The notes under the pieces were generated by a model. It worked only from the letters and a program-made list of their open reading frames with translations. It did no database searches and was not told where the DNA came from. Shown one piece after another: positions 11,701 through 17,808 of a DNA stretch of 45,461 bases. The translations under genes and the position numbers were made by a program. Origin of the DNA: an uncultured Bacteroidales bacterium (GTDB taxonomy: Bacteria; Bacteroidota; Bacteroidia; Bacteroidales; UBA4417); the NCBI GenBank assembly GCA_903879715.1, contig CAIRMR010000002.1:1-45461 (forward strand), written 5' to 3'. Each line of letters starts with the position of its first letter. Within the stretch, counting starts at the first letter, position 1.

Positions 11701-11961
11701 TCCCGAAAAGTAAAACTTATTTGAGAGATATTCGTCAGAAACCTTGAAATATCTTATTCTTGATAGTGAATTGATATTTCTTACGGGAAATTCATCTCTA
11801 AGCTTAACAATAGGAAATATCAGCTTGTGAATTGTTTAAAAACATTCCAGAATTCAAGAAATGCAGACGCTGATTCTAATCCTATCTACCTTTTTAACAA
11901 GTCGTTAACATTTTTTAACAAAACTCTTTCTATATCTTTACATTTCGGATGGGTGTAAAGC

Positions 11962-12026
11962 TCTATTTGTAATGAATATAAATTATTGTTCTGCGTCAGG
12001 AGAAGCACATTTGTTCATTAAATTTG
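11962..12026 (+). promoter_or_regulatory. Duplicated promoter-like block upstream of the first outer-membrane gene
   Basis: CTATTTGTA, then ATATAAATTATTG, then TTGTTCATTAAATTTGT occur here in order, and again at about 14033-14096 in front of the first lipoprotein of the island. Each copy has an exact TAnnTTTG box: TAAATTTG at 12019-12026 here. The spacing between blocks is nearly the same in both. The rest of the 11701-12227 gap (527 bases) is A/T-rich and shows nothing else I can name. Confidence 0.45.
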
Positions 12027-12262
12027 TCTTAACAATAAATAAATTAGAATTTATTTTTAGGTGAACCAGCTTAGAGAAATGTATTATCCTTATTGAATTG
12101 GCATAAAAATACCATATTGTTTTAATGCAATAAATTATTGTAAACCTTAACCTAATTATATGGAAAATTTGAGAAAACAATTCGGTGCAAAATCGCGGGA
12201 ACCTACAATGACATTGTTAAATACTGCTTGACAATCATTTGTAAAAATTCAGAATATTATTT

Positions 12263-12320
12263 GTGGAGACCAGCAACCACTAAAAAAAACGGGGCGGTAC
12301 CGAAAAGCCTTATGAGTAGG
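12263..12320 (+). ncRNA. Conserved structured leader A (candidate cis-regulatory RNA)
   Basis: The 58 bases are almost identical to 13098-13154. The order is: stem GTGG, 10-base loop AGACCAGCAA, closing CCAC; an A-rich linker (12281-12290); GGGGC (12291-12295); small hairpin GGTACC; GAAAA (12302-12306); GCCTT (12307-12311), which pairs with GGGGC; then ATGAGTAGG. The element ends 21 bases before the ATG at 12342. A near-consensus TATTATTTG sits just upstream (12256-12264), so transcription may start at the beginning of the element. I do not recognise it as a known riboswitch class. Confidence 0.55.
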
Positions 12321-12341
12321 AGAATGTTAAATCAAATAAAC

Positions 12342-12944
12342 ATGAAAAAATTATTAGTATTATTAGTTGTACTATTAACAGCTAGTGCAATTTTCGCTCA
12401 AACTAAAAAAGGAGACTTCGTCTTGTCAGGAGGCACAGGTTTAACATCTATCTTTACGAGTTCAACACCAGTTTATGATGGTCAATCTGGAGACAAAACA
12501 AAAGGAAGCTCAATTTCATTTCTGCCTTCATTTGGCTATTTTGTAATAGATAACCTGGCAATTGGATTAACAGGCAATATTGCACATAATGCTTATAAAT
12601 ATGAAGATGGTGATAAAGATGTAATGAATTCAATCCTAATTTTGCCAACGGCGATCTATTTTTTTCCAATTGATGGTAAGATTAGGCCATTAGCACAAAT
12701 TGGAGTTGGTATTGCCTCACAAACCTATAAATATATTCCAAAAAGCGGCAGTAATGAAGAGTCATCGTCTAGTGGCATATGCTTCAATATTGGAGTAGGG
12801 ATTTCTTATTTCATTAAAGAAAATATTTCGTTTAATTTAGGTTTATCGTATACCAGGGCTACCTTAACAGATAGTGATGATAATAAGTATAAAGAAAAAC
12901 AAGGAAACCTGGGTTGTAATCTAGGTATTTCTGTTTTCTTATAA
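12342..12944 (+). CDS. Small outer-membrane beta-barrel protein
   Basis: This protein of about 200 residues has a signal peptide (MKKLLVLLVVLLTASAIFAQ, cleavage after AQ) and alternating strands typical of eight-stranded Bacteroidota barrels (ISFLPSFGYFVIDNLAIGLTG, split into strands; ENISFNLGLSYTRATL). It ends in the hydrophobic strand LGISVFL. The start 12342 is preferred because it begins the signal peptide; an in-frame ATG at 12228 would translate through the leader. An AAAT-rich stretch, not a Shine-Dalgarno site, precedes it. The function is unknown, and ligand or structural roles are both possible. Confidence 0.82.
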   Translation: MKKLLVLLVVLLTASAIFAQTKKGDFVLSGGTGLTSIFTSSTPVYDGQSGDKTKGSSISFLPSFGYFVIDNLAIGLTGNIAHNAYKYEDGDKDVMNSILILPTAIYFFPIDGKIRPLAQIGVGIASQTYKYIPKSGSNEESSSSGICFNIGVGISYFIKENISFNLGLSYTRATLTDSDDNKYKEKQGNLGCNLGISVFL

Positions 12945-13097
12945 AAATTCCTGACGTGATTTAGCTAATAAGATGCCTGTTTTTATTCGATCCTCTATTA
13001 ATTGAATGTAGTTTTCCTTCAAGAAATCTACACCCATAATAAAATGTCGTAATAATAAGGATTTTAGGGATAGATCAGGTTAAACAATTTTTTTAAC

Positions 13098-13154
13098 GTG
13101 GAGACCAGCAACCACTATAAAAACGGGGCGGCGCTGAAAAGCCTTATGAGTAAG
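13098..13154 (+). ncRNA. Conserved structured leader B (second copy)
   Basis: This copy matches leader A in GTGG, AGACCAGCAA, CCAC, GGGGC, GAAAA and GCCTTATGAGTA. It differs in the linker (one base shorter) and in the inner hairpin, GGCGCT instead of GGTACC. That change keeps the small stem by a G-T pair. The element again ends exactly 21 bases before the ATG (13176). The downstream protein is not clearly related in sequence to the one behind leader A, so this is not simply a duplicated gene. Confidence 0.55.
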
Positions 13155-13175
13155 AAAAATTAAAAACAATAAAAA

Positions 13176-13874
13176 ATGAAAAAGAATATACTTCTGATTG
13201 CTGTTATTGTTTTAGTAGGTTTAACAACAAGTTTGTTTGCCCAAAAGGACAGAACACTTAGTAATGGGTTTAGCGTCAATCTTATAATAGGGTTTCCTTC
13301 AAGTAACTATGCGTTAACAAGTGATGGGAAAATGGATGGTTATTCGATGCTGGATAATGATATTATAGGGGATGATTATAAATTAAGTAGTCTTTTGGGG
13401 ATTCAGATTGGTAACCGCTGGTATTTTAAGCCAAAAGAAAAATATGGATTCGGACTTATGGTAAATTGGCTTGATTTCACAATGGGAGTTAAGTCCGGTA
13501 CTATTTATGATTCTGATTGGGCAAGAGCAGTGATTGATTTCTCGTTTTTAGAGGTCGGTCCTGTAGGAACCTTTGTATTAGCTGACAACCTGGCACTGGA
13601 TACTTATTATAATCTGCGGCCAACGGTGCTTTCGAGTGCTTCTGTTTTTACCTCTTCCGGTAGCGAAGATGAAACGTATGCCTATGTTGGTGTAGGTGTT
13701 TCACATGCAATCGGAGCCGCTGTCAGGTATAAAATATTCAATTTAGGAATGGAGTATACAATGGGAGCTATTAACAGTAAAGGAACATACTCAGGTTCAT
13801 TAAGCGATGAAACATTGGCGGATCAAAAAAACATAGTTAACTGTTTCAGACTAAAACTGGGATTGAAATTCTAA
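13176..13874 (+). CDS. Outer-membrane beta-barrel protein
   Basis: This 232-residue protein has a signal peptide (MKKNILLIAVIVLVGLTTSLFA, cleavage near AQ) and barrel-like strands such as IGNRWYFKPKEKYGFGLMVNWL and FLEVGPVGTFVLADNLALD, in segments with alternating hydrophobic residues. It ends in FRLKLGLKF, with the C-terminal Phe common in outer-membrane barrels. It follows leader B and is followed by a terminator at 13926, so it is likely a single-gene unit. The ligand or role is unknown. Confidence 0.83.
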   Translation: MKKNILLIAVIVLVGLTTSLFAQKDRTLSNGFSVNLIIGFPSSNYALTSDGKMDGYSMLDNDIIGDDYKLSSLLGIQIGNRWYFKPKEKYGFGLMVNWLDFTMGVKSGTIYDSDWARAVIDFSFLEVGPVGTFVLADNLALDTYYNLRPTVLSSASVFTSSGSEDETYAYVGVGVSHAIGAAVRYKIFNLGMEYTMGAINSKGTYSGSLSDETLADQKNIVNCFRLKLGLKF

Positions 13875-13962: not shown

Positions 13963-14032
13963 AATCAGAGTGGATTGCTTTATTTGTTTTACATTTTTTT
14001 TCAGGTCTGGCTTTTTCTCCTGGCACAAACAT

Positions 14033-14096
14033 CTATTTGTATCCGATATAAATTATTGACGAGCGGATCAAAAGCTTGATTGTTCATTATATTTGT
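14033..14096 (+). promoter_or_regulatory. Second copy of the duplicated promoter-like block
   Basis: It repeats CTATTTGTA, ATATAAATTATTG and TTGTTCATTA-ATTTGTA from 11962-12026. The -7 type box here is TATATTTG at 14088-14095. About 270 bases separate it from the lipoprotein start at 14369, so it may drive a long leader. The remainder of the 13875-14368 gap is A/T-rich apart from the inverted repeat at 14282-14335. Confidence 0.4.
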
Positions 14097-14368: not shown

Positions 14369-14761
14369 ATGAAACAAAAACTTATTTTTCCCTTAGCGAT
14401 TTTCATTCTGATGATTTGCTGGGGATGTGAGAAAAATTCTGACGATTCGTCTGCTGATTTAGCTGCAAATTCAACCGGCGTTTATACGGGCATCTGGGCG
14501 ATACCTGGTACAGGCCAGGTAGCAGGAACCTGCCAGGTAGTTAAAGTTTCCGGAGCTTCTGTAAATTTAGTTATGACAGCTGGCGGACAATCAATTCCGA
14601 CTTTGCCAGGGGTGAAACTTAGTGACAGCGGAAGCGGTAAAATAAACATCTCATATTCTGATTCTGGTGGCACACTTAATGGTACAATTGAGAATAAATC
14701 ATTATCATTTACCATAAAAGCAGGAACTATAACAGAGACGTTTTCGGGTACAAAGCCGTGA
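14369..14761 (+). CDS. Lipoprotein, paralogue of the one at 15671-16063
   Basis: This lipoprotein of 130 residues has the signal MKQKLIFPLAIFILMICWGC, with the lipid-bearing Cys, followed by EKNSDDSS. The acidic residues soon after Cys resemble the Bacteroidota lipoprotein export signal, so it may reach the cell surface. The body is a small beta-rich domain: TGVYTGIWAI, GQVAGTCQVVKVS, SVNLVMTAGGQ, and the end GTITETFSGTKP. It shares these with the second copy, including two conserved cysteine-adjacent motifs. The start 14369 is chosen because it opens the signal peptide. Function unknown. Confidence 0.8.
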   Translation: MKQKLIFPLAIFILMICWGCEKNSDDSSADLAANSTGVYTGIWAIPGTGQVAGTCQVVKVSGASVNLVMTAGGQSIPTLPGVKLSDSGSGKINISYSDSGGTLNGTIENKSLSFTIKAGTITETFSGTKP

Positions 14762-15670: not shown

Positions 15671-16063
15671 ATGAAGCAAAAACAGATTCTTGCCATTGCA
15701 ATTATTACCTTGATGATTTGCTCTGGTTGTGAAAAAGACCCGGACACTCCTTCCGTTGATCTTTCGGCTAATGCTGTTGGGTTGTATAGCGGCACCTGGG
15801 TTGTAGTTGGTCTCGGGCAGGTATCAGGCACCTGCCTGGTAAACAAGGTATCAAGTACTTCGGTAAACTTAATAATTACAGCAGGGGGGCAAACAATGCC
15901 AACATCACCTGAAGTAAGCCTGAGTGATGGCGGAGGTGGTATGATAACTCTCACCGCCAGTGATTCAGAGTGCACAACAAATGGTTACGTGATAAACAAA
16001 ACCTTATCATTAACCTTAAAATGCGGAGTAATCACAGAGACTTTTACAGGTACGAAACCCTGA
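15671..16063 (+). CDS. Lipoprotein, paralogue of the one at 14369-14761
   Basis: This 130-residue lipoprotein has the signal MKQKQILAIAIITLMICSGC followed by EKDPDTPSVDLSANAVGLY. It aligns over its full length with the first copy: GTW, GQVSGTC, SVNLIITAGGQTMPT, LSDGGGG, and the end GVITETFTGTKP. The two share about half their residues, so the duplication is not very recent. Two extra cysteines appear (ASDSECTT, LKCGVI) that the first copy lacks, and they may form a disulfide. The start 15671 opens the signal peptide. Confidence 0.8.
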   Translation: MKQKQILAIAIITLMICSGCEKDPDTPSVDLSANAVGLYSGTWVVVGLGQVSGTCLVNKVSSTSVNLIITAGGQTMPTSPEVSLSDGGGGMITLTASDSECTTNGYVINKTLSLTLKCGVITETFTGTKP

Positions 16064-16171
16064 AATGTGGATTTTTAATCTCAGTATCACCAAAATAATG
16101 GACGCGTATCCAAACAATAGTTTACAGGTAGGATTTTAGTCTTTTACGAATTTTTTGATCATGAATAAATC

Positions 16172-16201
16172 AGCGGCAGCCGAAAAGCTTTTCAGAGTAG
16201 G
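16172..16201 (+). ncRNA. Partial leader C sharing the 3' half of leaders A and B
   Basis: AGC, small hairpin GGCAGCC, GAAAA (16182-16186), GCT-TTT, and then AGAGTAGG correspond to the second half of leaders A and B. AGC pairs with GCT here, where A and B have GGC with GCC, which preserves the pair. It ends 22 bases before the ATG at 16224, against 21 in A and B. The GTGG/CCAC hairpin is absent. Confidence 0.45.
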
Positions 16202-16223
16202 TAAAATCTAAATTCAATACATT

Positions 16224-16808
16224 ATGAAAAATCTATTAAAACCTTTCATTGCAATTCTTCTACTAGGCCTTTTTGTTGACGGATGCAAAACAGACGAAGA
16301 CGAAACCGTTAAAAATTATTTTAAATATGACGGTACCGAATTTATTTTATCGAAGGGGTTTCTTGAAAATTATGGAAAATATTCTGCTGATGAAGGGTAT
16401 AATATTGATTTAAGCCTGCTCTCGTCAGCTTTTACCATCTATGAGAAGGATGGTGAAGTCGATATGGTTTCAGGTGTAGGGGATGCCCTTTATTTCGAGA
16501 TTTTTACTTCTCTTCCAGATAAATTGGATGTTAGGGATTATTTATATGACGGAACCGAATCCTTTGCTGCCGGGACTTTTGACTTGGGGGTGATTGGTAT
16601 GGGTTTTAATATGGAGACTGAAACCGGATCAGTTTTTGATATTTCCGGGGGAAAAGTGAGTGTGACAAATAATGGCAGTGAGTACGAGATAACGATAAAC
16701 TGTACTGCTTCAAACGGCAAAACCATCACTGGATATTATAAAGGACCCCTGAAATATTACAATTACGACACGAAAAAGAAATCTGTACAGAGATTTCCAA
16801 TCAGATAA
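16224..16808 (+). CDS. Lipoprotein of unknown function
   Basis: This 194-residue lipoprotein has the signal MKNLLKPFIAILLLGLFVDGC followed by the acidic KTDEDETV, a good export-type lipobox. The body is beta-rich and acidic (YFKYDGTEFILSKGFLENYG; FNMETETGSVFDISGGKVSV; YEITINCTASNGKTITGYYKGPL). It has features of a small surface domain, but I do not recognise the family. It stands behind leader C and before the bidirectional terminator. Confidence 0.8.
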   Translation: MKNLLKPFIAILLLGLFVDGCKTDEDETVKNYFKYDGTEFILSKGFLENYGKYSADEGYNIDLSLLSSAFTIYEKDGEVDMVSGVGDALYFEIFTSLPDKLDVRDYLYDGTESFAAGTFDLGVIGMGFNMETETGSVFDISGGKVSVTNNGSEYEITINCTASNGKTITGYYKGPLKYYNYDTKKKSVQRFPIR

Positions 16809-17657: not shown

Positions 17658-17808
17658 GATTTTTTGTTTTTAGATTGTTGTTTTTTTAATTGTTATTTAT
17701 TCGTGTTTGAAATTTCTTTGCTTAATCGGCTTTTTGATACTGCCCCGCTTTATTTGGTAAATGGCTTCTGTTATTTTTTTTTCTATTCTTTTATATCTGG
17801 TCTTGGGG

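Follow-up and report, generated by a model that had tools for sequence, protein, structure and literature searches.

Compact pseudoknots close to a start codon are known from the SAM-II and preQ1-II riboswitches, which act on translation through an H-type pseudoknot whose 3' strand holds the Shine-Dalgarno sequence. DUF805 RNA, which reportedly stems from a 2017 study of 224 candidate structured RNAs, is held in Rfam as family RF03081 (type Cis-reg, clan CL00115), and DUF805b (RF02914), of the same clan, is its short sister class. No account of the function of DUF805 RNA was found in the literature searched, and the accessible part of PMC10085705 makes no mention of DUF-named RNAs.

Here, two leaders in a stretch of 45,461 nucleotides from an uncultured Bacteroidales bacterium (the whole of which is called the window below) are assigned to DUF805 RNA, and a third is likened to DUF805b. 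DUF805 RNA resembles SAM-II and preQ1-II in being a compact pseudoknot near the start codon and, as judged from A and B, in having no terminator. It differs from them in that its 3' strand mostly ends 18-25 nt upstream of the start codon, in a phylum that is without Shine-Dalgarno sequences according to the accessible part of PMC6847099. The family itself is already known; what is added here are the pseudoknots (new by comparison with the cmscan structure line only), a rule for the distance to the start codon, the view of DUF805b as a bare 3' module and the copies in Pseudomonas.

Assignment of the leaders to DUF805 RNA

Leaders A (12263-12320) and B (13098-13154), both on the forward strand, lie where the first-pass annotation had placed them, and the parts that it had described (a GTGG/CCAC stem with a 10-base loop, GGGGC..GCC and a GAGTA(G/A)G tail) are seen in both. 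The distance from leader to ATG is also exactly 21 nt in each case, counted from the homologous ends G12320 and G13154 to the start codons at 12342 and 13176, and no intrinsic terminator is present within these 21 nt for A or B. The annotation had been unable to match the leaders to a class. The covariance-model search that it proposed corrects this point: cmscan assigns A and B to RF03081 and the third copy to RF02914, and the outer stem of RF03081 covaries. Leader A scores 80.4 bits (E 2.1e-13, Rfam match 12258-12326) and leader B 78.0 bits (E 7.7e-13, Rfam match 13093-13160), both above the cut-off of 51.1. Each has the P1 and P2 stems with the conserved loop and tail, and each is placed upstream of a same-strand gene, as expected of a Cis-reg family. 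Judged by the E values and the covarying outer stem, the likeness of the leaders to RF03081 is greater than chance. Both match the family end to end; the cmscan structure line contains P1 and P2 only, and the pseudoknots PK1 and PK2 were found in the present comparison.

Stems, pseudoknots and the short sister class

The comparison of family members gives two stems and two pseudoknots as the fold of DUF805 RNA. In leader A, P1 pairs GUGG 12263-12266 with CCAC 12277-12280 around a 10-nt loop and has four covarying pairs, and P2 pairs GGC 12293-12295 with GCC 12307-12309, with 99.2% of cells paired and few changes. PK1 is formed between the P1 loop and the CGG immediately 5' of P2 (C12270, C12271 and G12273 with C12290, G12291 and G12292 in A), and PK2 between the P2 loop (CYGAA) and the tail (AGUARG). 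In leader A, PK2 joins C12300 and C12301 to G12319 and G12320, with GAA 12302-12304 and AGTA 12315-12318 as flanks; covariation is seen in both pseudoknots. The main PK2 pair is swapped between the two leaders, from CC/GG in A to CU/AG in B (13134-13135 with 13153-13154). The annotation had read some of these bases as an inner hairpin that changes from GGTACC to GGCGCT and still pairs. That hairpin is not conserved, its second pair failing in 61 of 82 members, and the C/U bases assigned to it pair with the tail instead.

The first data set was an alignment of 82 members drawn from 93 distinct elements of at least 66 bits, the other 11, several of unusual length, having been omitted without a written rule. 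Across P1, P2, PK1 and PK2, standard pairs fill 93.8% of its cells (89.5% in shuffles), and there are 48 double changes compared with 8.8 for shuffles. Since the pseudoknots were first spotted by eye in these same data, further tests were made. From the approximately 234 Rfam matches listed (own genome counted once), 138, mostly stronger ones, were taken, and the 136 that fall on fetched loci were combined with 143 pattern-found elements to give 279, or 274 without duplicates and 251 non-redundant (the sets overlap slightly). In an unsupervised, structure-blind scan that scores every pair of columns in the 251 elements (G statistic with average-product correction), ranks 1-8 are taken by four P1, two PK1 and two PK2 pairs. 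Two of the three PK1 pairs covary in two alignments and hold ranks 2 and 6 in the scan, while the third (G12273-C12290 in A) is nearly invariant. Because this pair and P2 hardly vary, they are absent from the top ranks, with the exception of one P2 pair at rank 13. Another test set consists of 114 matches in loci located by a pattern that preset P2 and, in the third PK1 pair, the C, but put no constraint on those PK1 and PK2 bases that vary. In this set, which overlaps slightly with the 82-member one, PK1 is 95.1% paired with 14 double changes and PK2 97.3% paired with 27. The main PK2 pair is non-standard in 16 of the 250 elements with letters there, nine of these being C with A. Some members carry an extra hairpin, either within the P2 loop or at the junction of CGG and GGC, as would be expected of an RNA.

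Minimum-free-energy folding of the single leaders is no better than that of shuffled sequences (z +0.60 for A, +0.46 for B). This is unsurprising given the short stems and pseudoknots that are beyond the folding program, and the evidence for the fold is thus comparative. A helix joining the tail to the bases that follow P1 was also considered by eye and then dropped, as several members break it.

Next to the main PK2 pair, a G, A and A that face A, U and A, with a G between, are kept in 234-246 of the 251 elements. Conserved G-A-A and A-U-A bases of this kind are, from structural work, a signature of the bulged-G module, which this part of PK2 (GAA/AGUA) probably forms. As in the loop E and sarcin-ricin motifs, AGUA faces GAA beside Watson-Crick pairs; DUF805 RNA differs from the named module in that the bulged-G-like part, known here from conservation alone, spans a pseudoknot. 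Five loci before DoxX-like genes (L034, L065, L011, L073 and L074; Pfam was run for L011) have, by eye, a variant tail such as GAGYCAG, in which the C could pair with the loop G and replace the bulged-G module.

Leader C at 16170-16203 on the forward strand is DUF805b-like and contains the 3' module only. When a model built from the 82 RF03081 members is run on the window, a weak site of 13.7 bits appears at 16150-16207 in addition to A and B; Rfam resolves it as an end-to-end match to RF02914 at 16170-16203 with 31.3 bits (E 1.5e-6 for the genome). As this score lies under the RF02914 cut-off of 35.6 bits, leader C is termed DUF805b-like only; it is probably also what the first-pass annotation meant by a leader C. 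It has P2 (AGC 16172-16174 with GCU 16187-16189), the tail pairing of PK2 (GCC 16179-16181 with GGU 16200-16202) and a position just 5' of a gene, its tail being 22 nt from the ATG at 16224. The P2 and PK2 module is common to the two classes, and DUF805b differs from DUF805 in being without P1 and PK1. Of 32 DUF805b loci, 28 were parsed, one of them (L285) falsely, and all three PK2 pairs are formed in the 27 true elements, in seven pair combinations that include GCC/GGC, UCC/GGA, ACC/GGU and CCU/AGG. The parse preset the middle 3' G of PK2 and permitted A or G at the first position, so that the third pair is a free test, and it changes on both sides. For full DUF805 RNA a third PK2 pair was rejected, being formed by only 30 of 82 members. 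An ORF start was assigned to 22 of the 28 parsed DUF805b elements, and 16 of these 22 lie at 18-25 nt, under a choice of start that prefers 14-32 nt. On these comparisons DUF805b reads as the bare 3' module (P2 and PK2), which is able to stand alone.

Start-codon distance, target genes and distribution

An ORF start was found within about 160 nt of the element in 262 of the 274 cases and none for the other 12, taking the first ATG past the tail that opens at least 60 codons, with other starts as a fallback. The distance from tail to start is 18-25 nt in 186 of the 262 (median 21); 76 fall outside this range, 21 of them beyond 35 nt. An alternative choice of start, which prefers 14-32 nt, gives 196 of 256 at 18-25 nt. 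Together with the covariation and the unrelated genes downstream, this supports the proposal of the first-pass annotation, namely a cis-acting structured RNA whose distance to the start codon is under selection. The spacers of unrelated genes have a mean identity of 0.436, close to the 0.412 of shuffles, so their length is conserved more than their sequence. Adenines abound in the spacer and are found at -3 (0.72), -12 (0.74) and -13 (0.71). In the accessible part of PMC6847099, ribosome profiling of F. johnsoniae finds little structure between -20 and +20, and adenines at -3, -6, -12 and -13 are described as tuning initiation. On that basis, a distance of 18-25 nt puts the end of most elements at the upstream boundary of the initiation region.

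Two further candidates for the role of these sequences were set aside. An upstream ORF or leader peptide in the tail (ATGAGTAGG) was rejected because the T of its ATG varies (ATG in 121, ACG in 98 and AAG in 37 of 274). No promoter was seen at a fixed upstream position; TTGACA is commoner upstream (30 vs 8 of 269 sequences), and its positions are scattered.

The first-pass annotation had described the genes behind A and B as outer-membrane genes, which holds for A: its 200-aa product (12342-12944, +) is an outer-membrane beta-barrel (PF13505, OMP_b-brl, 45.3 bits, cut-off 28.7). The 232-aa product behind B (13176-13874, +) has a signal-peptide-like start and no Pfam match. Beside the signal peptides, the similarity of the two genes is only weak, with E 0.001 for a stretch of 44 residues. 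A relative of gene B at another locus (G003:C73) is preceded by a leader that is 93% identical. The gene behind C (16224-16808, +) encodes 194 aa with a start that reads as lipoprotein-like and is likewise without a Pfam match.

Across the loci, 256 downstream proteins form 157 clusters, and Pfam finds 124 families among 139 cluster representatives, the commonest in six members. The 25 families listed include outer-membrane barrels, type IX secretion tails, PixA inclusion-body proteins, an aquaporin-type protein, rhodopsin and DUF805. By a crude test, 103 of the 139 representatives are secreted or membrane-like, compared with 11 of 27 other genes of the window. In the genome of the window itself, which has 14 RF03081 matches (12 above the cut-off), targets include TM2, WG-repeat and DoxX-like proteins as well as barrels. 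This diversity suggests a general signal rather than a single pathway, and the families of the 139 representatives are too diverse to give a metabolite hint.

At E <=0.001, RF03081 is matched in 31 of 60 genomes of a set of relatives and in 69 of 395 genomes of a phylum sample (own genome included in both); in these two sets each positive genome holds between 1 and 17 matches. It is also matched in one of 14 control genomes (Bacteroides ihuae) and in 5 of 199 genomes of a Pseudomonas sample, two of which were previously known to be positive. RF02914 is matched at E <=0.001 in 35 of 41 genomes, own included, a count in which some sites are in fact full-length DUF805 RNAs, and above the cut-off in 26 of 41. 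None of the 14 controls has an RF02914 match at E <=0.001; at a loose E of 1 all 14 do, none above the cut-off. A pattern scan of named genomes finds at least 120 stretches, and the 80 titles listed are nearly all from Bacteroidota, with three from Pseudomonas and two from Ignavibacteria. Six contigs of a viral collection are matched. Leader A had no counterpart in phage and plasmid records at the sensitivity of that search.

There are ten loci of the Pseudomonas type, two of which (L252 and L253) were unparsed. In four Pseudomonas loci (L125, L148, L152 and L251) the element is 88-98% identical, while identity is 18-48% in the 100 bases upstream and 50-89% over the first 240 bases of the coding sequence. 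Loci L233, L234, L235 and L237 of the viral collection (L234 and L235 being near-duplicates) have the same small gene and a like pattern of conservation. The start codon lies 22-25 nt from the element with GGAG inside the spacer; for L148 and L152, where the script chose an ATG at 9 nt, the value of 24 nt is a reading of the sequence. That the element was kept while its flanks diverged points to selection acting on the element itself in Pseudomonas. In all eight of these loci the element precedes a small protein that we take to be cystatin-like from its QVVNG-like motif.

Possible mechanism and alternatives

Our main reading, to which we assign a probability of roughly 0.6, is that A and B are cis-regulatory RNAs of the DUF805 class, that C is like the sister class, and that these RNAs act on translation initiation of the next cistron. 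The fold would form in the mRNA and sit against the initiating 30S subunit, and a signal that stabilises or undoes the fold would change the translation of that one cistron. Control of single cistrons at translation is favoured by 32 same-strand neighbour pairs in which each gene has a copy of its own, the copies being separated by 371-2684 nt (within 3 kb), and by close upstream ORFs: the nearest one of at least 100 codons is on the same strand in 176 of 274 elements, and in 33 of these it ends no more than 68 nt from P1. The likeliest trigger, which we give about an even chance, would be a small molecule or an ion that several phyla share.

A more specific and more tentative proposal, which we consider possible at best, is that a double-pseudoknot RNA widespread in Bacteroidota regulates translation from just outside the initiation footprint, with a stand-off of approximately 21 nt and without a Shine-Dalgarno sequence. 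Such a "ribosome-edge switch" would be portable to Shine-Dalgarno users, and DUF805b would be a minimal module to which a second, sensing knot is added in DUF805. If true, it would be an expression platform unlike known ones. The pseudoknot model, the minimal module, the distance rule and the natural copies in Pseudomonas make the mechanism directly testable, and the system could reveal RNA control of translation in Bacteroidota, where there is no Shine-Dalgarno sequence to hide.

The alternative that survives best, although we consider it unlikely, is a protein-binding leader, in which a regulator bound to the double pseudoknot would block or help initiation. The nearly invariant loop and tail bases would suit a protein, as would the large number of targets, the majority of which the crude test classes as envelope-like, and bulged-G type modules often serve as protein sites. 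However, retention in Pseudomonas, where each of six positive genomes has a single RF03081 match, needs a protein that is common to the phyla or was co-transferred, and thus argues against a regulator restricted to Bacteroidota. In view of the Pseudomonas pattern, we consider a lineage-specific protein a less likely trigger than a small molecule, an ion or the ribosome itself.

Somewhat poorer still are the prospects of a constitutive enhancer, in which nothing is sensed and the fold itself would serve a phylum without Shine-Dalgarno sequences by recruiting the 30S subunit or placing it in position. Docking of this kind would fit the place of the element, 18-25 nt from the start codon and bordering the initiation region, as well as the unrelated genes that follow and the like spacing in Pseudomonas. 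A general aid to initiation is nevertheless hard to reconcile with a presence in 69 of 395 phylum genomes at 1 to 17 matches each, and the Pseudomonas copies carry GGAG too. It is very improbable that a trans-acting small RNA pairs with the conserved loop or tail; the many strictly conserved bases and many targets per genome would fit, but many of the conserved bases covary internally, which an external partner leaves unexplained. A feature of the DNA (a promoter part, a regulator site or a dispersed repeat duplicating with its flanks) can be discounted almost entirely. The likeness of A and B does extend as far as the start codon (82% in 65 nt), but their identity of 81% is inside the range of elements in their own genome (maximum 84%), compensatory changes run across the pseudoknots, hairpins are inserted, the spacing is kept between spacers that are little alike and the promoter position is not fixed.

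Some other features of the window were observed. Two neighbouring genes at about 14371-14761 and 15672-16063 have, by eye, alike lipoprotein-type starts, and the search of the window with the 82-member model found no DUF805 leader at either. On the reverse strand, a DUF805-like match at 17711-17776 scores very low (17.9 and 19.8 bits) and seems too distant from the next start codon; it is possibly a decayed copy. Finally, the stretches 11957-12027 and 14027-14096 are alike in two blocks (81% and 94%), and each ends in a TAnnTTTG-like box; they are perhaps related promoters.
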